Source: Clostridia bacterium (lineage in GTDB: Bacteria > Bacillota > Clostridia > Christensenellales > Aristaeellaceae). Taken from it: a stretch of 64,000 nucleotides of DNA. The notes beneath the pieces were generated by a model. The model searched no databases, was not told the origin of the DNA, and saw only the letters and a list, made by a program, of their open reading frames with translations. The stretch is taken from the NCBI GenBank assembly GCA_017410455.1, contig JAFQQT010000038.1:32231-96230 (forward strand). Reading direction: 5' to 3'. Positions within the stretch are counted from its first letter, which is position 1, and each line of letters starts with the position of its first letter. Positions 2,421 through 29,272 of this stretch are shown here, piece after piece. Both the position numbers and the translations under genes were made by a program.

Positions 2421-3923
2421 TCAGCTGTGCTGGCGGTACCATTCGTAGTCGTAGCCGTAGTCGGAATCCTCGGGGCTGGCGGCGATGGTAAAGCGCACGA
2501 CGGCGTTCTCCCGCAGGTGCAGCATAACGCCCTGGGCGCCGGTCAGCAGCTCCGTTGCGCACTGGGGCTGGCCCGCCTGACGCAGGAACTTCAGCTGCGC
2601 GGCGGTCAGGGAGGCGGGCTCGCCCATCTCGTGCCAGCACTTGAGCGGGTTGCAGACCACCTCATCCACCGTCTCCGTTGTCAGGACGGCGCGCCCGGGC
2701 AGGGGCAGCGTCAGGTTGATGGTCAGCTGCTCACGCTCCTGGCGGCAGATGTTCCACGCAACGCCCTCGTAGGAGCCGTCGGGCTTCTTCAGAAGGACGA
2801 CGTTCTCGTCGCGGTGGACGCACTCGCCCTTCAGGTTGTTGAAGAACGCAAAGGTCCACAGCGTCGGCTTGGCGATCAGCCCGTTGGCGATCATACCGAA
2901 GCCGCCGTGGAAGGGCCTGGCCGGAATCCCCTGCTCCTCGAACACATCGCCGAAGGTCCAGTAGGAGTAGCTGGCGCACATGTCGCCCAGGCGCGCCAGC
3001 AGACCGGCGACGCAGGCGGCGTTCAGGTTCGTGTCGTGAATGGCGCAGAAGGGATGGTACGAGGTATTGAACTCAGTGATGTGCATCTCCATCCCCGCGT
3101 ACTCCGGGAAGCTGTCGATGATGTCGCGGGTGCCCTGCATTTCCTCGGCGATGGACTCCACCGTGCGCATGGTGTGGTAGAGGTAGCGGCCGTGACGCTC
3201 GGGCGTTTCGCCCATGTAGGCATGGCGGGTCAGGAAGTCCAGCGGGAGCCTGTTGTCCCGGCAGAAGGTCAGGAAGTTGCGGATCCAGTCCGGCGTGGTG
3301 GAGCCTCCGCAGACCGCAGGGCCGCCCACGCGCATCCTCGGCAGGGCTTCCTTCACAGCCTTTGCGGACACCGCGTAGAGCTCGTGGTACTTCTTTTCGT
3401 CCGCGTGCTCCCAGAAGCCGGGCAGGTTCGGCTCGTTCCACACCTCGCAGGGCCAGGTGGACACCTCGTCCTCGCCATAGCGGTCCGCCAGATGGCGCAG
3501 GGTCGCCTTGATCATGTCCGCCCATTTCTGATGGTCTGCAGGCGGGGTGGTGTTGCCCTTCCAGTAGAAGATGGTTTGACTGCCGCTGGCCATCTTTTCC
3601 GGCATGAAGCCCAGCTCCAGGAAGGGCTTGAGGCCATTGGCCATGTAGTAGTCCATCACTCGGTCGAGGTAGGTGAAGTTGTAGCTCTCATGCTCGTCGC
3701 TGCCATCGAAGGCACGCCAGTGCTGGTAGATGCCCATGTCGTCGGAGAACAGGCCGTGGCCGCGGATATGCCTGAAATGGCACTCCGCCTGCGCCATGGC
3801 CAGCTGCTCCTGATACTCCTGCTGCAGCGCAAGGCCCATGCGGCCAGTGCCCACGCAGAAGGCAGCGTTGTTGTTGAAGCTGGCCCGGCTGTCCGGGGTG
3901 ATGGCGATACTCAGATGCTTCAC
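2421..3923 (-). CDS. glycoside hydrolase family 39, probable beta-xylosidase
   Basis: 500 residues, no signal peptide, so probably acts on xylo-oligosaccharides inside the cell. The TIM barrel shows the GH39 acid/base motif VWNEPN (Glu164) and the nucleophile motif HITEFN (Glu284); their spacing matches characterised beta-xylosidases of the family. A C-terminal beta domain follows. The start is GTG at 3923, supported by GAGAGGGAG 6-7 bases upstream. It lies 21 bases downstream of the metallo-hydrolase gene and is probably co-transcribed with it. It is divergent from a GH67 alpha-glucuronidase, which fits glucuronoxylan use. Activity on other beta-glycosides cannot be excluded. Confidence 0.88.
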   Translation of the reverse strand: MKHLSIAITPDSRASFNNNAAFCVGTGRMGLALQQEYQEQLAMAQAECHFRHIRGHGLFSDDMGIYQHWRAFDGSDEHESYNFTYLDRVMDYYMANGLKPFLELGFMPEKMASGSQTIFYWKGNTTPPADHQKWADMIKATLRHLADRYGEDEVSTWPCEVWNEPNLPGFWEHADEKKYHELYAVSAKAVKEALPRMRVGGPAVCGGSTTPDWIRNFLTFCRDNRLPLDFLTRHAYMGETPERHGRYLYHTMRTVESIAEEMQGTRDIIDSFPEYAGMEMHITEFNTSYHPFCAIHDTNLNAACVAGLLARLGDMCASYSYWTFGDVFEEQGIPARPFHGGFGMIANGLIAKPTLWTFAFFNNLKGECVHRDENVVLLKKPDGSYEGVAWNICRQEREQLTINLTLPLPGRAVLTTETVDEVVCNPLKCWHEMGEPASLTAAQLKFLRQAGQPQCATELLTGAQGVMLHLRENAVVRFTIAASPEDSDYGYDYEWYRQHS

Positions 3924-3944
3924 GGGATGCTCCCTCTCTTTCGT

Positions 3945-4733
3945 TCAGTCCAGCTGGGCCCTTGCCCAGTCGAATACAAGGATCTGCCCGTCGGTCACAT
4001 TGGCCTGGCGGGTGTCGATGTGCTCATAGCCGCCGATCTTCACGTGGGCAGCCGCGCGCAGGACGTCGTCGGTCAGGTTGAATATGAAATCGTCGAACTT
4101 CGCGCGGGGATACAGGTCAAGCTGATGGCTGCAAAGGACATGGGTGAAAGGCAGTGCCTGCAGCGCACAGACGTTCGTGCGGTATTGCATCACAGGCAGC
4201 GCCGCCTCGAAGAACAGCCAGGTGCAGGGATTCCAGTCATCGCCGGTCAACAGCAGCTTGCGCTCCGGCACGTACACCACGCAGGAGCCGGGCGTGTGGC
4301 CGGGGCACGGGATGACCCGCGCCGTCATGCCGCCCAGGTCGAGATCGCCCCCGTGGATGGCATAGGGCTGGCGGCACTCGCCGTCAAGGAAGGCTGCTTC
4401 CGTCACTGCAAGGCCTTTCGCCTGTGCCTGACCCAGCACGACGCGCCGCCTGGCTGCCCCCGTGAAGACAGGCCATTCCGCCATGTCCTCCGGGAGCATC
4501 ACGGTCTTGTCGAACCACCGTGCGCCCAGAGCATGGTCGTGATGGTTATGCGTCAGTAGCACGGTGATCGGCTTGTCCGTCAGCGTGGCAACAAAGGACG
4601 CCACATCCTCCACCCCATAGCCGGTATCCACCAGCACGGCTGCCTTTTCGCCCTCGATCAGCGTCATGCAGACGCCCATGCAGTCGCGGATATGCGTCAC
4701 GCCATCGCAGACGCGATTCAGCTCGAAACTCAT
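3945..4733 (-). CDS. metallo-beta-lactamase-fold hydrolase
   Basis: 262 residues. The signature THNHHDH (His62, His64, Asp66, His67) and the later motifs PGHTPGS, TGDDW and CSHQ define a glyoxalase II-like MBL fold that binds one or two metal ions. The substrate is not evident. The ATG at 4733 has AAAGGAG upstream. It is the first gene of a two-gene unit with the GH39 gene, divergent from GH67. It may act on an ester or lactone produced during hemicellulose breakdown, but that is inference from position. Confidence 0.82.
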   Translation of the reverse strand: MSFELNRVCDGVTHIRDCMGVCMTLIEGEKAAVLVDTGYGVEDVASFVATLTDKPITVLLTHNHHDHALGARWFDKTVMLPEDMAEWPVFTGAARRRVVLGQAQAKGLAVTEAAFLDGECRQPYAIHGGDLDLGGMTARVIPCPGHTPGSCVVYVPERKLLLTGDDWNPCTWLFFEAALPVMQYRTNVCALQALPFTHVLCSHQLDLYPRAKFDDFIFNLTDDVLRAAAHVKIGGYEHIDTRQANVTDGQILVFDWARAQLD

Positions 4734-4857
4734 GCGCTCAACTCCTTTGCGCAAGTTTTGATCTATCATTTCGACGCATTCCATGATGATTCCTGTTGAT
4801 CCTCTGCGCGCATGTTGCCCGATTCTGAGCAAATCTTGCTGCACTTGCCGGGCAGGC

Positions 4858-7680: not shown

Positions 7681-9156
7681 TTATGCGCGGCTCCAGACAG
7701 CGCCGTCCTTGCTGTCCTTCACGACCACGCCCATGGCGGCCAGCTCGTCGCGGATGCGGTCGGACTCAGCCCAGTTCTTGGCCTTGCGGGCCTCATAGCG
7801 GGCAGTCAGCAGGGCGGTGACCTTCGCGTTCTCCTCCTCGGAGGCGTCTGCGGGTCCGGTGATGGCATACTCACCCGCACCGGCGGCCTTTGCGGTGGCC
7901 GTGGCGCTGGCAGCGCGCACCTTCGCAGCGGCCTCCAGCAGGTCAAGGCTCAGCACGCGGTCGAAGTCGCCCAGCAGATACAGCTTCGTCACGTCGTCAA
8001 TGTCGCGGCCCTTGAGCACGTCGTACAGGCAGGTGATGGCCAGGGAGGTGTTCAGGTCGCTGGTCAGGCCCTTGAGGAACTTCTCCTGATAGCGCCTGGC
8101 AGCCTCCAGATCGGGCTGCTTCGCATCGTCAGGCTTGAGGGCGGCGATGCGGCCGATCAGCTTGGCGTAGGTGCCCGCGGCGTTGTCGAGATTCTCCCAG
8201 GTGAACACGAGGTTCTGCCGGTAGTGGCTCTGCAGGCAGAACAGGCGGTACACCAGCGGATCGTAGCCCTTTTCCACCAGCAGGCTGACGGTCAGGAACT
8301 CGCCCTTGGACTTGGACATCTTGCCGCCGGCGGTGTTCAGGTGATGCACATGGAACCAGTGGCTGCACCACTCGTGGCCCAGATACGCCTCGGACTGGGC
8401 AATCTCGTTGGTGTGGTGCGGGAAGGCATTGTCGATGCCGCCGCAGTGCAGGTCAAGATACTCGCCCAGGTGCTTCTTGGAGATGCAGGAGCACTCGATG
8501 TGCCAGCCGGGATAGCCCACGCCCCAGGGGGAATCCCACTTCAGCGCCTGATCCTCGAACTTCGACTTGGTGAACCACAGCACGAAGTCCGCCTTGTTGC
8601 GCTTGTTGTCGTCGGCCTCCACATCCTCGCGCACGCCCACGGCCAGGTCCTCCTCGTCGTGGTCGTTGAAGACATAGTAGCGGGCCAGCTTGGAGGTATC
8701 GAAGTAGACGTTGCCGCCGGCGATGTAGGCAAAACCCTTCTCCAGCAGGCGCTCGATCATCTCGATGTACTCGGGGATGCAGCCCGTGGCGGGTTCCACC
8801 ACGTCGGGCGTCTTGATGCGCAGGCGCTGGCAGTCAGCGAAGAACGCATCCGTGTAGTACTGAGCGATCTCCATGACAGTCTTGTTCTCGCGCTTGGCGC
8901 CCTTGAGCATCTTGTCCTCGCCCGTATCGGCGTCGGAGGCCAGATGGCCCACGTCGGTGATGTTCATCACGCGGGTCACGTCGTAGCCCTCATAGCGCAG
9001 GGCCTTCTCCAGCACATCCTCCATGATGTAGGAGCGCAGGTTGCCGATGTGCGCGAAGTGGTAGACCGTCGGGCCGCAGGTGTACATCGAAACCGCATTG
9101 CCAAAGCGCGGGCGGAAAACCTCTTTCTTGTGGGTCAGAGAGTTGTAGAGCAGCAT
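7681..9156 (-). CDS. cysS: cysteine--tRNA ligase
   Basis: 491 residues. Class I synthetase that charges tRNA-Cys. The HIGH signature is HIGN (residues 36-39), the first zinc ligand is Cys27 in YTCGPT, the GWHIEC motif supplies further zinc ligands, and KMSKS is intact near residue 280. The ATG at 9156 is preferred over a TTG three codons upstream, since AAAGGATTGAGGA precedes it. The C-terminus (about 410-491) is the DALR anticodon-binding region, with an Ala-rich linker. Monocistronic, with a shared terminator downstream. I looked for a T-box leader but only 77 bases separate it from the GH2 stop. Confidence 0.96.
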   Translation of the reverse strand: MLLYNSLTHKKEVFRPRFGNAVSMYTCGPTVYHFAHIGNLRSYIMEDVLEKALRYEGYDVTRVMNITDVGHLASDADTGEDKMLKGAKRENKTVMEIAQYYTDAFFADCQRLRIKTPDVVEPATGCIPEYIEMIERLLEKGFAYIAGGNVYFDTSKLARYYVFNDHDEEDLAVGVREDVEADDNKRNKADFVLWFTKSKFEDQALKWDSPWGVGYPGWHIECSCISKKHLGEYLDLHCGGIDNAFPHHTNEIAQSEAYLGHEWCSHWFHVHHLNTAGGKMSKSKGEFLTVSLLVEKGYDPLVYRLFCLQSHYRQNLVFTWENLDNAAGTYAKLIGRIAALKPDDAKQPDLEAARRYQEKFLKGLTSDLNTSLAITCLYDVLKGRDIDDVTKLYLLGDFDRVLSLDLLEAAAKVRAASATATAKAAGAGEYAITGPADASEEENAKVTALLTARYEARKAKNWAESDRIRDELAAMGVVVKDSKDGAVWSRA

Positions 9157-9233
9157 ATTCCTCAATCCTTTCAGGGTTGTGACTTTATTTCATTCGACAT
9201 GGCCGGGTTGAATTCCTGCCTGCTATCATGATT

Positions 9234-12200
9234 TCATTGCGTGCTGAACCGGAAACGGTGGAAATCGAACTGACATCCCGGCAGGAAGACGAACGTCACG
9301 CTGCACATGCCCGGCAGCACGTCCATGGCGAACTCCTGCCAGCCACGCTCCGTCCCGCGGAACTGCGCCAGGGTCGTCAGCGTCTCGCCCGCCTCATTCT
9401 GGAAGCGGATGGTGATGGGGTTCTCCTGCAGCGGCGTGCAGCCATCGATGGCCAGCACGGCTCTCTGCGCTGCGCCGAAATCCATGCCATCGTAGACCAG
9501 CGAAACGTTGTTGCCGATGCCCATCACGCCCGCATCCGTCCGGGTGAAGCTGTCACCATAGACGGAATCCGCCGCCAGGGCGCTCTGTTCCAGCCATGCG
9601 CGGGACTGCCTGGTGAAGGAGAAGCCCTTGAGGTGAATCTTCTCCGTCGTGGAGAAGCACAGTGTATGCACGCCCGTCAGGCGGACGGGCAGCGTGTAGG
9701 TCTCCGGCTGATAGACATTCCAGCGGGAGGGCTTCTGGTACGGCAGGACAGCGATGACCGTTCCCCCCTCGCGGGGATCGCCATCCCACAGCGTCACCTC
9801 ATGCAGCTTGCTGTCCAGGGCGAAGATGGGCAGGGTGATCTCGTCCGAACCCACGGGGCCGAAGTCAACATTCGCGTATCCCGCCATGGAGTACCCCTCC
9901 CGGGCGAAGGAAACGCCCTGCTCGTTGCCGTTGCCGATGTCGCCCTCATGCAGGGTGAACAGTCCGCCGGTGACGAAGCCATAGGGATCCAGATTCGGCA
10001 TGCCCATGCCGGTGATGGTGATATCCTGCTGGCTGATCACGCGCGGATGATCGTAGCCATTGCAGCACATGGCGCGCAGGTACACGATGTCGTCGCCCAC
10101 GCCGGTGACAGTCACGGTATCTCCGTCCACGGACCAGGCAGCGCAGTTGCTCTCGATGCCCTTGGCGTTGGTGATGCGGAAAGATAGTTCCTGCCGGTCT
10201 GCGTCTGCCGGATGGCAGGCGACGCGGAAGGTCACGCTGGGGTTCACCGGGGTCAGCTGCTTGCTGCCCAGCGGGGTCAGGCTGATCTTGCGCACAGGGA
10301 TCTCATCCGGCATGGGAAGATCCACACAGTGCTGCTGGTCGCAGGTCGCGCCCTCGCGCATCCGTGTGAGCATGGCATCCGTGCGGATCTCCAGCACGGC
10401 AGGCTCCTTGCCGGGCGAAGTCACTTCGACGCGGATCACGCCCATGCGGTCGGTGGAGCCGATCATCGCCAGAAGCTTGCCACCAAACAGGCGGCGCGTG
10501 GTGGTCTTGTAGCCATCCCGGTCGGTGGAATCGCCGTTATCAAGACCCAGCAGGCGCCCCTCGCCCGTCACGGACATATGCACGCGGTCACAGGCGTTGT
10601 CGACCGGGTTGCCCTTCTCGTCCACCATGGCAACGGTCACGAAGGCGATGTCCTCGCCATTGGCGATCAGCGCGCCGGACGCCTCGCACGTCAGCACGAT
10701 GCGGCGGCTGTCCCCGGGGGTACGCCGCACATCCTCCGCGATGACCGTGCCCGATGCATCGCAGGCCACCGCCCGCAGTTCGCCCGACTCAAAGGGCACA
10801 TGCCACGTCGGGCGGGACTGCTCCCAGTCCGCGCGGCTGACCTCCTGCACGCCAAGGCTCTCGCCGTTGAGCAACAGCTCGCAGGTCGCGCCGTTTGTCA
10901 TCACGGGCACGTCGATCATCTGACCCGGGTTCCAGTCCCAGTGCACGCCGATGTGCGCCATGGGCTCCGGGTTCCACACGGACTTGCACAGGTAGAAGAA
11001 GTCCTTGGGGAACACGCAGGTGTCCATCATGCCGAAGTAGCTGTTTCTCGTATGATAGGGCGTGGGCTCGCCGATATAGTCAATGCCGGTCCAGAGGTAC
11101 TGGCCCAGCGAATAGGGCGTGTTGAGGTCCTCGACAAGGCACTTGCGCATGTCCTTGGTGCCCCAGGAGGTGGTGCTGTTGCCCAGGGACGAACACTGCA
11201 GATCGTCGTCGGAAAGGATGGGCGCGGACATCGGGAAGCGGTACACACCGCGGCTGGAGACCGCAGAGGCCGTTTCGCTCCCGTAGATGCACCAGTCCGG
11301 GTGCTGCGCGTGGTGCTCGGCGTAGAACTTCTCGCCGTAGTTGTAGCCGGCAGCCTGCACGTGTCCGGCACAGTTCTGCGCGCCCTGCCAGGGCATGAAG
11401 TTGCTGCCGATGGTGGTGAAGGCGTTCTCCAGCGGGTCATGGCGGCGGACGTATTCGCAGAGCATCTTCGTCACGTCCACGGCTGATTCATCCACATGGG
11501 TATCGAAGATTTCGTTTCCGATGGACCACATGAGCATCGAGGGGTGATTACGGTCGCGGCGCACCCAGGCGGCCACGTCGCCCTCAACGTCTGCCTCGAA
11601 AAAGCGGGCATAGTCGTAGGTCGTCTTCTGCCGCCGCCACATGTCGAAGGCCTCGCTGACCACCAGAATGCCCAGCTCATCGCACAGGTTCATCACGGGC
11701 TTGGCGGGCGGGTTGTGGCTGGTGCGCAGGCTGTTGACGCCCATGCGCTTCATGGCCTCCAGCTGCCGCTTTGCCGCCTTGATGTGGAACGCGCTGCCCA
11801 GGCAGCCCAGGTCGTGGTGGAGGCACACGCCGTGCAGCTTGACATGCTCTCCGTTGACCAGCAAACCACGGTCCGGCGTGAGGGTCAGCGTGCGGAAGCC
11901 CACGTGCTCGCGGATCACCTGCCCGCCGCAGATGGTCTCCAGCTCGTACCAGTAGGGATCGGCGGTGTTCCACAGGGCGGGCGCATGGATGGTCATCTCC
12001 GCGCGGGCAGCGTTACCTTCGATGCTGGCCGCCATCGTGCAGATGACCTCGTCCCCATCCAGCAGGCGGTGAACTACTGGCGTACCGTCATCAGCACCGG
12101 TCAGCTCGGTCTCCACCGTCAGCAGCCAGTCATTGTTATCAAGCGCCCTGGTCGTGATGTAGGTTCCATCCGGAACGACATGGCGCTGCGCTTCCACATG

Positions 12201-23669: not shown

Positions 23670-24002
23670 TTATTCCGGCGCTTTCCAGCGGCTGAGGTTC
23701 CGCTGATGCTTCGCACGGTATGCGCGCTCAAACTCCTCCGCCGTGATCCCGTAGCACAGGAGAACATCGCTGAAGAACATGAGCACGTCGCACAGCTCCT
23801 CCACCATGTCCGCGCGCACCTGCGGGTCGTTCATCACAGCGTCCGCGCCCTTGCGCTTGAGGATCTGGCTGACCTCGCCCACCTCGCCGATCATCCACAT
23901 CAGCTTGTTCAGCCCCCGGGCAGGCTCGATTGGCTCCCACCAGCCCCTGTAGCGCTCCTGCAGGGCGCTCTGCATGGCCAGCATGGTCTCCACATCCAGC
24001 AT
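23670..24002 (-). CDS. MazG-like nucleotide pyrophosphohydrolase
   Basis: 110 residues, all-alpha. The metal-binding pattern EVGEVSQ ... EELCDVLMFFSDVL fits the MazG-like NTP pyrophosphohydrolases that remove unwanted (d)NTPs. Gene spacing: its ATG is 3 bases after the GNAT stop, so it is the third gene of the HTH-GpsA operon. Confidence 0.85.
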   Translation of the reverse strand: MLDVETMLAMQSALQERYRGWWEPIEPARGLNKLMWMIGEVGEVSQILKRKGADAVMNDPQVRADMVEELCDVLMFFSDVLLCYGITAEEFERAYRAKHQRNLSRWKAPE

Positions 24003-24005
24003 CGG

Positions 24006-24524
24006 TCAGTCCTCCTTCATATCGTCCCGGAGAATGCCGTAGATGCGCACGTCATCATAGCCGCCATCCTGACGGGCATAGTGCTGGCGCATCACGCCCT
24101 CGAGCTGCATGCCGTTCTTTTCGCACACGCGGTAGGAGGCAATGTTCTCAGCCCGCACGGAGCAGTAAACACGGTTCGCCTCCGCCTCGTCGAACAGGAA
24201 GCGCAGAACAGCCCCCACCGCCTCGGTCATCAGCCCCTTGCCGCGCAGAGCCGGCGCGATATCGTAACCCAGCTGCACATAGCCGTTGAAGGGGCTGACC
24301 TCCCAACCCTTGATGCGGCTGACCGCCACGCCGTCCAGCGCAACGACCCAATGGAAGCCAAGGGGATGCGCCGCCTCCGAGGCCATCTCGCTCAGGCGCA
24401 CACGGGCGTCATTTTCGGACATGAGCAGGCTCCCCGCCGCCACAAGGGACGGAGCGTCCGATACCTCCGGTGCGCGCAGGATCAGCCTTCGGGTGGTCAG
24501 CGTCTTGGTGCAGATGGGTTTCAT
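24006..24524 (-). CDS. GNAT-family N-acetyltransferase (RimJ/RimL type)
   Basis: 172 residues. Starts TTRRLILRAPEVSDAPSL; the acetyl-CoA loop is LRGKGLMTEAV, and NIASYRVCEKNGMQLEG is the usual end of the fold. The substrate is unknown. Ribosome site GGAGGAA. Second gene of the operon between HTH-GpsA and MazG-like. Confidence 0.84.
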   Translation of the reverse strand: MKPICTKTLTTRRLILRAPEVSDAPSLVAAGSLLMSENDARVRLSEMASEAAHPLGFHWVVALDGVAVSRIKGWEVSPFNGYVQLGYDIAPALRGKGLMTEAVGAVLRFLFDEAEANRVYCSVRAENIASYRVCEKNGMQLEGVMRQHYARQDGGYDDVRIYGILRDDMKED

Positions 24525-24539
24525 AATGTGGTTCCTCCG

Positions 24540-25757
24540 TCAGAATTCGTCCTTGAGGCTGCGGGCGAAGAGCCTGTCGAGGCTTCGCCGCGCATCCGTT
24601 CCCTCGTACAGGATGCGGTAAACCGTTTCGCAAATGGGCAGCTCCACGCCATGGCTCTTGCCCAGGCTCCTGAGCGCACGCACCGTCGCGTACCCTTCGG
24701 CCAGGCTGCCGAATCGTTCGCCCCGCACCCAGCATTCGCCAAAGGCGCGGTTGCGGCTGTGGGGTGAAAAGAGCGTGGCCTCATAGTCCCCCAGATGACA
24801 CAGGCCGCTGGCAGACGCCGCATCGCCGCCCATGGCAACGATCAGCCGCGCCACCTCCCTTGTGCCCCGGGACATCAGCGCGCCCTTCAGGCTCGTCAGC
24901 CCCAGGCCATCCAGCATACCAGCCGCAATGCCGATGACGTTTTTCGCCGCCGCGCCGATCTCACTCCCCACCAGATCGCGCCCATAGTAGAAGCGGATCA
25001 GATCGCTGGAAAAGGCGCGGATCACGGCCTGCTTGGCCATCTCGCCGGCCGAATCAATCACCATGCAGTTCGGCACGCCACGCAGGAATTCCTCTGCATG
25101 CCCCGGGCCGACCCAGACCACTGCCTCGTTGGAGTGATCCAGCGCATCTGTGATCACCTGCGTCAGCCGCCTGCCGGTGGAGGCTTCCACACCCTTCATA
25201 CAAAGCACGATCGTGCGCCCGCGCAGCTCCATCTCAGCCAGCTGTCCCGCCAGGGCCGCCAGCTGCTGTGCTGGTACCGAGATCAGCAGGAAGTCCGCCT
25301 CCGACGCACAGGTCATATCATCCGACAGCGTGATGCTCTCCGGCAGCGTGAGGCACCCGCTTGTCCTGCTGATGCGAAGCGCGCGGAAATTCTCGCTCTC
25401 CCTGCGACCCACCAGCGTCACCTGATGGCCGATGCGCGCGGCATACCATGCCAGGAAGCAGCCCCAGCGGCCTGCGCCGATGACCACCACCCGCCGCGGC
25501 TCGCGCGCATCATCCGCCAGAATGGTTCCATGCCTGGCCACAGCGGCGCCGTTGCCCCGCAGGATGTCGTCCACCGTCACGCCATAAATCTTACTCAGCC
25601 GCATCAGCTGCGCCACATCCGGCAGCCCGGCGCCGGTTTCCCAGCGGGACACCGCCTGCCGCGACACCCCCAGGCGCGCAGCCAGCTCGTCCTGCGTGAT
25701 GCGGTAGTAGCGGCGCATGTGCGCAAGGCTCGCGCCGATCGCCTGATTGTCCATCAT
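24540..25757 (-). CDS. XRE DNA-binding domain fused to glycerol-3-phosphate dehydrogenase
   Basis: 405 residues. Residues 7-66 are a complete Cro/C1-type helix-turn-helix (ITQDELAARLGVSRQAVSRWE, then DDILRGN). After a linker, residues 90-405 are a whole GpsA: IGAGRWG (93-99), KGVE (188-191), GPGHAEEF (217-224), the catalytic Lys272 in AAKNV, and SRNRAFG. GpsA reduces dihydroxyacetone phosphate to glycerol 3-phosphate for phospholipids. I use ATG 25757, six bases after AGAGGTG; ATG 25763 is also in frame but abuts it. There is no stop or frame change between the domains. Whether it binds DNA is inference. Confidence 0.88.
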   Translation of the reverse strand: MMDNQAIGASLAHMRRYYRITQDELAARLGVSRQAVSRWETGAGLPDVAQLMRLSKIYGVTVDDILRGNGAAVARHGTILADDAREPRRVVVIGAGRWGCFLAWYAARIGHQVTLVGRRESENFRALRISRTSGCLTLPESITLSDDMTCASEADFLLISVPAQQLAALAGQLAEMELRGRTIVLCMKGVEASTGRRLTQVITDALDHSNEAVVWVGPGHAEEFLRGVPNCMVIDSAGEMAKQAVIRAFSSDLIRFYYGRDLVGSEIGAAAKNVIGIAAGMLDGLGLTSLKGALMSRGTREVARLIVAMGGDAASASGLCHLGDYEATLFSPHSRNRAFGECWVRGERFGSLAEGYATVRALRSLGKSHGVELPICETVYRILYEGTDARRSLDRLFARSLKDEF

Positions 25758-25873
25758 GTTCATCACCTCTGGAACAGCGTAACATATCGCGCGTCCTGCG
25801 TCCAGCAAGGGGACGTTGCTTCCGCCAAGCCTCCGCAATGGCTGCGTGCCCGTTCGCAGATCAGTCAACCCCG

Positions 25874-25915
25874 ATTATAGCACACCTTGCCCCGTCGCGC
25901 AACTTGTGCTATCAT
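25874..25915. promoter_or_regulatory. overlapping divergent promoters, HTH-GpsA and TetM-like
   Basis: Minus strand: TTGCGC (25902-25897), 17 bases, TATAAT (25879-25874). Plus strand: TTGCCC (25887-25892), 17 bases, TATCAT (25910-25915). The two overlap, so polymerase could serve only one at a time. The HTH domain of the leftward gene could act here. Confidence 0.6.
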
Positions 25916-25947: not shown

Positions 25948-27882
25948 ATGCGCAAGACCATCGGCATCCTCGCCCACGTGGACGCGGGCAAAACGACATT
26001 CTCCGAGCGGGTGCTGTACCACACCCAGGCCATCCGCAGGGTCGGGCGCGTCGATCATCAGGACGCGTTCCTCGATTCCCACCAGCTGGAGAAGCAGCGC
26101 GGCATCACCATCTTTTCCGGCCTGGCCTCCTTCCAGCTGGAGGGCGACACATATTACTAGCTGGACACCCCCGGCCACGTCGATTTTTCCACGGAGATGG
26201 AGCGGGCCGTGTCGGTCATGGACTACGCGGTGCTCATCGTCTCCTGCGCCGAGGGCGTGCAGAGCCACACCGAGACCGTCTGGCAGCTGCTGCGGGAGTA
26301 TGGCGTGCCGGTGATGGTCTTCCTCAACAAGCTCGACCGCGCTGGCGCCAACCCGGACCGCGTCATCCGCCAGATGCGCAGCCGCCTCTCCCCGGACATG
26401 CTCGATCTGCGCCGTTATCAGACCGAGAGTCGGTTTTCCAATGAGGAAGCCGAGGCCATTGCCGAGCGGGACGAGGAGCTGCTGGAGCGGCTGTTTTCAA
26501 CGGGCTGCGAGGATTCCATCTGGCTTGATGCGCTGAAAGTACAGGTCGCCCAGCGGCTGGTCTTCCCGGTGATGGCCGGCGTGGCGCTGGAGGGCAAGGG
26601 CGTGCCGGAGTTCCTGCGGGTGCTGTCCGCCATCACGCAAACCGACCGAAAGTCGGATGCGCCGCTGACCGCCCGCTGCTATCAGGTGCGCCACGACGCA
26701 GGCGGCCAGCGCCTGACCTTCCTCAAGCTCCTCTCCGGGACGCTACGGGTGAAGGACGAGCTTCCCGGCGGGCAGAAGGTCAACGAGCTTCGCGCGTACC
26801 ACGGCGAGAAGTACCGCCCGGTGGACACAGCCTTTGCCGGAGACATCGTGGCCATCCCCGGGCTGGAGGGGATCCGGCCCGGCGACGCCGTCGGCATGGA
26901 CGAGCACACCCGCTTCCGCACCGAGCCGATGATGGCTGCGGACGTGCTGTGGGACGAGAAGGCCATCCCCGCCTTCCGGATGATGCAGGCCCTGCGCATC
27001 CTGGAGGACGAGGAGCCGACGCTGACCGTCACCGAAACCCAGGGGCACATCGCCGTGCATGTCATGGGGCGCATCCAGCTGGAGGTGCTGCGCCAGCTGC
27101 TGCAGGAGCGTTTCGGCTTCGCAGCGGACTTCGGCCCCACCCATGTGCTCTACCGGGAGACCATCGCCGCGCCGTCCATCGGCGTGGGCCACTACGAGCC
27201 CCTGCGGCACTACGCCGAGTGTCACGTACGGCTCGTGCCCACCACGCCGGGCAGCGGCGTGACCTTCCGGAGCCTGTGCCACGTGGACACCCTCTCCCTC
27301 AACTGGCAGCGGCTCATCGCCGGCCACGTGAGCGAGAAGCAGCACAAGGGCGTGCTGACCGGCGCGCCGCTGACGGACGTGGAGGTGCAGCTGCTAACCG
27401 GCCGCGCCCATCTCAAGCACACCGAGGGCGGCGACTTCCGCCAGGCCACCTACCGCGCCATCCGCAACGCGCTGATGCATGCCGAATCCGTGCTGCTGGA
27501 GCCCGTGGCGGGCTTCAGCCTCCGCGCACCGGCGGACATGTACGGCAGCCTCGCCGGTGCACTCAGCCGCCTGCAGGCCGACGTGGACGTGCCCGAATAT
27601 GAGGAAGACAGCGTTATCCTGCGGGGCGAATGCCCCTACGCCGTCTTCGCGCCGTGGCAGGAGGACTTCCTGTCCCTGACCCACGGCCGTGGCGCGCTGC
27701 GCGTGTGGATGAGCCGCTACGCACCCTGCCGAGAGCAGCAGGCCATCGTCGAGGCCAGCGGTTACAACCCCTGCGCGGACGACTCCCCGGACTCCGTCTT
27801 CTGCAGCCATGGCGCGGGCTTTGTCGTTCCGTGGAACGAGGTGCGCAGCTACATGCACATGTCCCACGAAGAATTTCAGTGA
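25948..27882 (+). CDS. TetM-like translation-factor GTPase, interrupted by in-frame UAG
   Basis: One continuous frame of 644 sense positions, normal for ribosomal-protection-type GTPases, except that codon 71 (26158-26160) is TAG. The G1 loop AHVDAGKTT (9-17) is before it; G3 DTPGH (73-77), G4 NKLD and the EF-G-like domains are after it. Homologues have a residue such as Leu or Trp here (YY-x-LDTPGH). No frameshift is seen and the rest looks conserved. It is recoded, newly inactivated, or a read error. The C-terminal loop usual in TetM/TetO is not recognisable, so tetracycline resistance is not assured. Ribosome site AAAGGAG. Confidence 0.8.
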
Positions 27883-27949: not shown

Positions 27950-29272
27950 ATGCGTAAAGAACTCATCATCCGGCTGATCGCGCTGCTGCTCTGCCTGCTG
28001 ATGGCCCTCCCGGCCGCTGCGGAGGAGCTGCTCGTGGCGGCCCCTGACCAGCCCGACACGGTACCGTACCCCGCCACCGACGCGTTCGGCTTCTTCCTGG
28101 ATGACGATGCCTACCAGGCCTGGCACGAGAGCGTCAACACCCAGCGGCGCGACATCCCCTCGGCGGAGACGCTCACGCCCTTCCTGACCGCCTCCACGCA
28201 GGCCGTCCTCACCGGCAGCGACGGCGAGAACCGCGTGTACTCCCCCATGAGCCTGTACATGGCCCTGGCGATGCTTGCCGAGACCACCGGCGGCGAAACC
28301 CGTGAGGAGATTCTCTCGCTGCTGGGGCAGGAGGACATCGCATCCCTCCGCCAGCAGGCCAGCGACCTGTGGAACGCCAACTACCGCAATGATGGCGTCA
28401 TGACGCGCACGCTGGCCACGTCCCTGTGGCTGAACGAGGACATCCCCTTCCGTCAGGAGACCGTCGATAACCTCGCGGGCGGCTACTACGCCTCCGTCTA
28501 CCGTGGGAAAATGGGCAGCCCGGAGCTGAACGCGGCCCTGCAGCGCTGGCTGAACGACAACACCCTGGGCCTGCTGACTGAGCAGGTGCAGAGCATCACT
28601 CTTCCGCCGGACACAGCCGTCGCCATCGCCAGCACCGTGGCCCTGAGCGCCCGCTGGTCTGATACATTCTACGAGGGCAATACGTCATCCGCCGTCTTCC
28701 ACACCCCTGATGGGGACGTGACCTGCGATTTCATGCTTTCCGTCTCCGAAGACAACGTCTACTGGGGCGAGCGCTTCATGGCTGCTCACCGCAGCTTTGA
28801 TCAGGGCGGCGCGATGTGGTTCATCCTGCCAGACGAGGGCGTGTCCGTCGACGACCTGTTGGCTGACGCGGAGGCCCTCGCCTTCATGCTCGACGCCAGC
28901 GCAATCCGCAACAACCGCTATGTGGAGCTGCACCTGAGCGTGCCGAAGTTCGACGTATCCAGCCAGCTGGAGCTGTCCCAGTCACTGCAGGCCCTGGGCG
29001 TAACAGAGGTGTTCGATGCAGATGCGGCGGACTTTACGCCCCTGTCGGATTCCGGTCTTCCCATCAGCCTGTCTCAGGTGCGCCACGACGCCCGCGTCGC
29101 CATCGACGAGGAGGGCTGCGAGGCCGCCGCCTACACCGTGATGATGCTGGCCGGGTCTGCCATGCCGCAGCACCGCGAGGTCGTAGAACTCGTGTTGGAC
29201 AGGCCCTTCCTGTTCGTCATCACCGGCGCGGGCGGTCTGCCGCTCTTCGTGGGCGTGGTGAATGAGCCGTAA
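27950..29272 (+). CDS. secreted serpin (serine/cysteine protease inhibitor)
   Basis: 440 residues. Signal peptide about 1-24 (PAAA), no lipobox. Serpin core from about 75. The reactive-loop hinge EEGCEAAAYT (about 388-397) has the short-side-chain pattern of inhibitory serpins, though P14 is Cys rather than Thr or Ser. By alignment with alpha-1-antitrypsin the scissile bond would be near Ser404-Ala405. Ends with the conserved DRPFLFVI and GLPLFVG strands. Gut bacterial serpins are known to inhibit host or competitor proteases. Ribosome site AAAGGAG; the next gene follows by 13 bases. Confidence 0.9.
   Translation: MRKELIIRLIALLLCLLMALPAAAEELLVAAPDQPDTVPYPATDAFGFFLDDDAYQAWHESVNTQRRDIPSAETLTPFLTASTQAVLTGSDGENRVYSPMSLYMALAMLAETTGGETREEILSLLGQEDIASLRQQASDLWNANYRNDGVMTRTLATSLWLNEDIPFRQETVDNLAGGYYASVYRGKMGSPELNAALQRWLNDNTLGLLTEQVQSITLPPDTAVAIASTVALSARWSDTFYEGNTSSAVFHTPDGDVTCDFMLSVSEDNVYWGERFMAAHRSFDQGGAMWFILPDEGVSVDDLLADAEALAFMLDASAIRNNRYVELHLSVPKFDVSSQLELSQSLQALGVTEVFDADAADFTPLSDSGLPISLSQVRHDARVAIDEEGCEAAAYTVMMLAGSAMPQHREVVELVLDRPFLFVITGAGGLPLFVGVVNEP

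Follow-up and report, generated by a model that had tools for sequence, protein, structure and literature searches.

The window analysed here, a 64,000-nucleotide stretch from a Clostridia bacterium (GenBank assembly GCA_017410455.1, contig JAFQQT010000038.1, positions 32,231 to 96,230), contains a gene whose product almost certainly exists as a fusion of an XRE-type helix-turn-helix (HTH) DNA-binding domain with the glycerol-3-phosphate dehydrogenase GpsA. GpsA supplies the glycerol-phosphate backbone for membrane lipids, and this fused form of it occurs in some gut bacteria. On balance, we favour a bifunctional protein, which would both keep its GpsA activity and bind its own promoter. The adjacent promoter switch looks built for the attached DNA-binding domain, and the enzyme therefore probably regulates its own synthesis. 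What sequence comparison offers for this reading is a conserved fusion, catalytic residues that are retained with the exception of the relatives' phosphate-binding arginine, a fixed spacing between a predicted operator and the -10 element, and the scarcity of this operator at unfused homologues.

Architecture and occurrence of the fusion

The gene lies on the minus strand (24540-25757) and is translated in one frame of 405 residues and a stop codon, without an internal stop. An earlier note on this DNA had placed an HTH in front of a complete GpsA at these coordinates, which are right, and both Pfam and the predicted structure agree with it. All Pfam matches exceed the gathering cut-offs: HTH_3 at residues 20-64 (E 1.6e-12, 47.7 bits, cut-off 23), HTH_31 at 7-64, NAD_Gly3P_dh_N (PF01210) at 90-237 (E 3.9e-24, 85.9 bits, cut-off 23.1), and NAD_Gly3P_dh_C (PF07479) at 261-391 (E 1.4e-36, 126.2 bits, cut-off 25). 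NCBIfam assigns the protein to subfamily NF000942 (262.1 bits, cut-off 257), and in a sequence comparison the P22 C2 repressor domain matches the HTH region. The predicted model contains five HTH helices (4-17, 22-29, 33-41, 48-58, and 62-66), and its confidence score (pLDDT) falls below 50 only in segments 77-83 and 401-405. Fold comparison, whose listed rows span residues 85-400 with the HTH outside the rows shown, identified the fold of glycerol-3-phosphate dehydrogenase (GPDH) for the C-terminal domain. Lys 272 and the SRNRAFG motif, both pointed out earlier, are present.

Relatives were collected from one genome per species (84,980 species), and the best 80 of 590 confirmed relatives were kept. 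Among these 80, 13 match from residue 1 or 2 to residue 405 with 54-68% identity; in the remaining 67, which are unfused, the match begins at residue 67-92. Thirteen other species thus encode HTH and GpsA in one frame. Each of the 13 frames is uninterrupted and comes from a separate metagenome-assembled genome (MAG); for eight of them, the stated source is deer or goat rectum or cecum. Together with the window's protein, there are at least 14 fused members. No further open fused frame was found in 150 genomes of the same family, in 391 of the same class, or in 397, 17, 138, and 4 genomes around G151, G150, G157, and G156, respectively; in the searches of 150, 391, 397, and 138 genomes, up to 12, 4, 4, and 13 candidates were scored per genome. 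A candidate from the class-wide search, G536, matches from residue 17, but its frame crosses three stops. Six of 138 genomes from the G157 genus carry the fusion, as do two of 17 from the G150 genus and one of 150 from the window's family; its distribution looks rare and patchy. Viral contigs contained a single relative, which is unfused. On plasmids, 456 records match, all with less than 60% identity, and the five matches listed begin at residue 77 or 89.

For the 14 fused proteins (91 pairs), the mean pairwise identity is 62% in the HTH, 66% in the GpsA part, and 31% in the linker. As architecture and HTH identity are kept across all 14 proteins, a one-off chimera is excluded and the HTH can be argued to be translated and under selection. 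The coding sequence begins with two consecutive ATG codons, the second of which is the alignment start for 11 of the 13 homologues. That an assembly chimera or an internal start conceals an ordinary GpsA is extremely improbable. The assembly is fragmented, consisting of 93 contigs; however, an assembly error is unlikely because the same contiguous, uninterrupted frame is found in 13 other assemblies. Likewise, translation is unlikely to begin beyond residue 66, since the HTH is kept in 13 other species and a ribosome-binding site, AGAGGTGA, precedes the first ATG. Both objections had been raised in the earlier note.

A predicted operator in the promoters of fused genes

An alignment of the regions upstream of the fused genes brought out the inverted repeat TGCAA-N7-TTGCT. 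In the window's copy, AGCAACGTCCCCTTGCT, the two arms of the inverted repeat match perfectly, and no other exact WGCAA-N7-TTGCW occurs in the 64 kb. Within 150 nt upstream, a match of at least eight of ten bases occurs at 12 of 14 fused genes, but only at three of 64 unfused ones (Fisher p 9e-10; three of the 67 unfused loci have less than 150 nt upstream and were left out). Because the repeat had been derived from these very sequences, all patterns of the form 4mer-N(0-12)-4mer in 110 nt were also counted without bias. GCAA-N7-TTGC ranked first, being present in seven of 13 fused and one of 65 unfused regions (L033 was left out as a near copy, as were two of the 67 unfused loci with less than 110 nt), whereas in 100 shuffled sets the best pattern of any kind reached four. 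When only one member per close group was kept by removing the near copies L033, L030, and L031, the same site topped the counts with six and five of 11; among 300 shuffled sets, five was reached in one and six in none.

In 11 of the 14 fused genes, the spacing between the blind best match and a -10-like hexamer is constant, and L094 can be added by means of this spacing. The resulting alignment of 12 promoters, in which L094 is positioned by spacing and L033 and L034 are omitted, reads TGCAA-N7-TTGCT[TG], 18 variable positions, TG (T in 8/12, G in 10/12), one base, and TA...T; it thus consists of two conserved blocks with a variable core. If the hexamer is taken as -12 to -7, the centre of the repeat falls at about -43 and overlies the upstream edge of a poor -35 element. 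In the window, the transcription start is predicted about 12 nt ahead of the ATG. The XRE protein CI of phage lambda activates PRM from such a position; repression from there is also possible. In summary, the predicted operator is conserved at the promoters of fused genes, occurs rarely before unfused homologues, and stands out against shuffled sequences. These promoter comparisons support the earlier proposal that a DNA-binding GpsA acts on a neighbouring promoter, but they place the operator and the -10 at 25776-25820, immediately ahead of the gene's own start, and not at the divergent promoters at 25874-25915. No conserved element was found in the latter interval; a consensus scan located there a sigma-70-like promoter on the plus strand (25887-25915), which faces the divergent gene.

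Two observations favour the HTH as the reader of the repeat. L034, whose recognition helix (SAAAVRRWE) alone among the fused proteins differs clearly, has no site; and in G162 another XRE gene encodes the helix VSRQAVSRWE and carries AGCAA-N7-TTGCT 27-48 nt before its possible starts (picked by eye). In addition, 11 unfused members inside the clade holding the fused genes score only 6-8 of 10 over 300 nt. Given these comparisons, it is quite likely that the fusion protein binds its own promoter at the repeat.

Several findings weigh against this interpretation. The repeat was first picked out by eye, related promoters are not independent, and the match in a single promoter beats its own shuffles (p <=0.015) in only eight of 14 cases. 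L034 and L094, with 7/10 each, fail the blind scan; the best match of L033 lies elsewhere; and one unfused gene, L064, matches at every base, at a distance of 3 nt from where its aligned region begins. A sigma-70 consensus scan finds no minus-strand promoter here. At the promoters of the closest stand-alone XRE proteins stands another palindrome, which is longer and contains GGTTGCTTGCAA, and TTGC elements occur near -35 upstream of such kin (both by eye). Because of these TTGC elements, another XRE regulator might use such sites. Moreover, no regulon was recognised. Exact WGCAA-N7-TTGCW sites number 232 in the 14 genomes (1-31 each) and matches to the reversed pattern 0-7 each, a control that differs in dinucleotides, so that a genome-wide excess over chance cannot be read from the comparison. 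In the window, four matches with one mismatch allowed compare with 6.39 expected from shuffles. Excluding the fused genes' own sites, 77 of the 232 were read: 8 in the window's genome G000, 8 in G150, 6 in G162, 21 in G157, 13 in G153, 15 in G158, 2 in G156, 3 in G155, and 1 in G160. Sixty lie inside open reading frames of at least 140 residues, possibly chance frames in GC-rich genomes, and 17 lie outside. Judged by the first 80 residues and without family searches, no lipid gene was identified at these 17 sites, and no operator before a lipid gene was recognised among the 77. This is why we propose regulation of the protein's own gene and the genes co-transcribed with it.

A separate observation concerns XRE proteins of about 520-570 residues at L206-L220, in genomes of the family. 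By eye, the promoters of many of them contain a palindromic element, ATTCTACC..GGTTGCTTGCAA..GTAGAAT, immediately ahead of the -10.

The GpsA domain and rival readings

The GpsA part belongs to a divergent clade. For the alignment, L004 (internal stop) and the duplicate loci L002, L003, and L111-L124 were left out; 107 of its 108 rows entered the tree after removal of one unfused row shorter than 250 residues, and a structure alignment comprised 37 sequences (the 14 fused and 23 of 78 unfused). A branch with 100/100 support separates 14 fused and 77 unfused rows from 16 canonical GpsA sequences. The clade holding all fused rows has a support of only 88/91, and the bootstrap had not settled. 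The fused and unfused labels require five changes on the tree, four of which are forced by starred branches; one gain of the HTH followed by losses and several gains are thus both compatible with the tree. The unfused L044 is nested inside a fused group with starred support. Particular to the clade is the motif GLCHLGDYEAT-x-FS-x-x-S.

According to the excerpted text of PMC12874384, human GPDH uses the catalytic residues K120, K204, N205, D260, T264, and N270 and binds the substrate phosphate with R269. Placed on the fusion protein via an alignment to 1x0v, the catalytic residues correspond to K188, K272, N273, D324, T328, and N336, which are kept in all 14 fused proteins. The position of R269 is different: canonical GpsA has arginine in 16 of 16 sequences, the fused proteins have His (10), Gln (3), or Arg (1), and the unfused ones His (64), Gln (10), Asn (3), or a gap (1; n=78). 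The lone arginine is R335 of the window's protein, so that calling it a complete GpsA with every main motif, as the earlier note did, is correct for the protein itself, but does not portray its clade. In human GPDH, the exchange R269A lowers kcat/Km 4.5 million-fold (PMC12874384). With this effect in mind, the use of His, Gln, or Asn instead of arginine is notable; this clostridial clade appears to manage without the residue that the human enzyme needs for the substrate phosphate. For the same reason, the loss of the arginine from 13 of 14 fused proteins speaks against the bifunctional reading, as the GpsA activity of the relatives may be low or altered.

We further determined whether the genomes contain a canonical gpsA, counted at E <1e-40. 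A second gpsA, for which the earlier note had suggested looking, exists in the window's genome on contig C41; with eight of the 13 other fused genomes, this makes nine of 14, and the remaining five, all MAGs, have no other strong GpsA. For comparison, 25 genomes of the 67 unfused loci were hand-picked, named isolates first, and searched with PF01210. In 20 of them, the search gave no second match at 1e-10, in G163 it gave a single additional weak one, and G164, G165, G176, and G178 have a strong canonical copy; the unfused member is therefore the only strong GpsA in 21 of 25. In the window's family, none of 12 genomes with an unfused member has a canonical copy. In total, canonical copies accompany nine of 14 fused but four of 37 unfused genes (Fisher p 0.0003), a contrast confounded by taxonomy and by the incompleteness of MAGs. 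Fused genes tend to be second copies. In four of the loci compared, a PlsY-like gene is located immediately upstream (the L088 copy matches PF02660 with 2.5e-46). From these data, we infer that the divergent clade supplies glycerol 3-phosphate in nature.

Three observations on gpsA genes may be added. The canonical GpsA of the window's genome (L001, G000:C41, 607-2061, minus strand) has about 130 extra C-terminal residues, which look cytidylyltransferase-like by eye and in which Pfam finds nothing. A NAD_Gly3P_dh_N match at E 1e-12 is absent from 90 of 150 genomes of the window's family, including all six congeners drawn. Directly upstream of the fused gene in L027, a gene for a 379-residue GpsA-like protein (3697-4836, plus strand; weak PF01210 match) stands beside a DeoR-like gene (by eye).

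In the mechanism we propose, the C-terminal domain most likely still uses NAD(P)H to reduce dihydroxyacetone phosphate (DHAP), which yields sn-glycerol 3-phosphate. Two fusion proteins would form a dimer whose N-terminal HTHs bind TGCAA-N7-TTGCT (AGCAA-N7-TTGCT in the window) near -43 of their own promoter, and the bound dimer would set transcription of the fusion enzyme and of the genes behind it. The sign of this autoregulation could be either, as the -43 site, the weak -35, and the extended -10 suit activation and repression alike. DNA binding might be modulated when the GpsA domain closes on NAD(H), DHAP, or glycerol 3-phosphate; such ligand gating is possible, though we regard it with some doubt. 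The same tentative standing applies to a self-metering enzyme, in which NAD(H) and DHAP in the active site would alter the spacing or freedom of the HTHs, so that redox and glycolytic state would set transcription of the enzyme for the lipid backbone.

Alternatively, the protein could be a regulator only, with a GpsA domain that serves as a non-catalytic ligand sensor while the canonical GpsA makes glycerol 3-phosphate, in analogy to BzdR (PMC3602430). The frequent canonical gpsA in fused genomes, the replaced phosphate arginine, and the BzdR precedent itself are in its favour. Yet the arginine replacement is common to unfused members that are mostly their genomes' only strong GpsA; the other catalytic residues are invariant, and the window's protein even retains the arginine. 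As five fused genomes lack another strong GpsA, and as the co-residence contrast suffers from taxonomy and hand-picking, we consider a pure regulator unlikely. Less probable still is an incidental HTH with weak DNA binding or a role in oligomerisation, the promoter element belonging to another XRE regulator. The TTGC-containing promoter elements of stand-alone XRE kin would fit this, and so would the nested L044, which calls for at least one loss of the HTH or for repeated gains. However, the element is rarely seen ahead of unfused homologues, the 11 inside the fused clade included; L034, with its diverged recognition helix, lacks it; and the constraint on the HTH nearly equals that on the enzyme. 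Returning to the bifunctional reading, its two parts can be graded separately: besides the promoter binding assessed above, retention of the predicted GpsA activity is likely.

Neighbouring genes and comparison with known systems

Features of the fused gene and its surroundings in the window
Feature	Position	Strand	Evidence
110-aa protein, MazG-like by eye, 3 nt further downstream	23670..24002	-	no Pfam/NCBIfam match; BLAST relative in L023
GNAT acetyltransferase, 15 nt downstream of fusion	24006..24524	-	Pfam; BLAST relative behind fused gene in L023
HTH-GpsA fusion coding sequence	24540..25757	-	405 aa; translation, Pfam, homologues
GpsA domain, divergent clostridial type, residues 88-405, with K188, K272, N273, D324, T328, R335, N336	24543..25496	-	Pfam, alignment, fold
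Flexible linker, residues 69-87	25497..25553	-	pLDDT <50 at 77-83; mean 31% pairwise identity in fused family
XRE/HTH_3 DNA-binding domain, residues 1-68, recognition region VSRQAVSRWE	25554..25757	-	Pfam, five model helices, conservation
Ribosome-binding site AGAGGTGA	25763..25770	-	sequence
Predicted extended -10 (TGT-TACGCT), 18 nt 5' of start codon	25776..25781	-	12 aligned fused-gene promoters
Predicted operator AGCAA-N7-TTGCT	25804..25820	-	promoter comparisons; only exact WGCAA-N7-TTGCW in window

The GNAT gene is probably co-transcribed with the fusion. Among the loci compared, this gene, the 110-residue gene, and several further genes recur only in L023. In L032, PlsY-like and MGDG-synthase-like genes (8664-10393, plus strand) follow about 2.4-4.2 kb behind the fused gene, and BLAST detects them also in L033; the pair was not seen behind fused genes at the other loci compared. 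Upstream of the fusion, at about 25948-27882 on the plus strand, the window encodes a divergent GTPase resembling EF-G and tetracycline ribosomal-protection proteins, which is interrupted by an in-frame stop near its 5' end; the piece from 26197 matches tet_protect NF012153 with E 6.4e-82, but with only 276 of the 775 bits of the cut-off. A serpin gene (PF00079, E 1e-56) follows at 27950-29272 on the plus strand.

No description of an HTH-GpsA fusion was found in open-licence full texts. The closest analogues were compared on the basis of excerpts of the cited papers. NadR of Enterobacterales, which combines an HTH with nicotinamide mononucleotide adenylyltransferase and ribosylnicotinamide kinase, likewise has an HTH at its N-terminus, in front of metabolic enzyme domains that are active, and its orthologues outside this order mostly lack the HTH (PMC12421817). 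It represses several NAD genes, whereas the predicted site of the fusion was recognised only at its own promoter, and the enzyme families differ. In BzdR, an XRE-type HTH is similarly linked to an enzyme-derived, shikimate-kinase-like domain, and a path from shikimate kinase to regulator has been proposed (PMC3602430). BzdR has lost catalysis and senses benzoyl-CoA (PMC3602430); in contrast, the fusion keeps catalytic residues, and fused and unfused versions coexist. XRE-cupin regulators resemble the fusion in joining an XRE domain to a second, signal-handling domain, but the cupin is a signal sensor, according to the title of PMC7901475, and they have no dehydrogenase. PMC7641849 deals with an operon rather than a fusion. 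The GpsA proteins of Thermotoga maritima (1z82, 335 aa) and Coxiella burnetii (3k96, 356 aa) have no HTH in the aligned chains and contain the SRN motif, whereas the window's clade has GLCHLGDYEAT and mostly S[H/Q]N.

By analogy, the HTH-GpsA fusion looks like the intermediate postulated for BzdR, in an enzyme family shared with neither NadR nor BzdR. The evolution of enzymes into transcription factors has mostly been argued from end states such as these two. Here, one GpsA clade offers several stages: unfused members as the sole strong GpsA, fused members apparently alone, fused members beside a canonical copy, and one unfused member that branches within a fused group. The fusion would also link the supply of the phospholipid backbone directly to transcription. 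If the reading as a self-metering enzyme is true, the fused and unfused species would form a living series of an enzyme turning regulator, within a GpsA clade that manages without the usual phosphate arginine.
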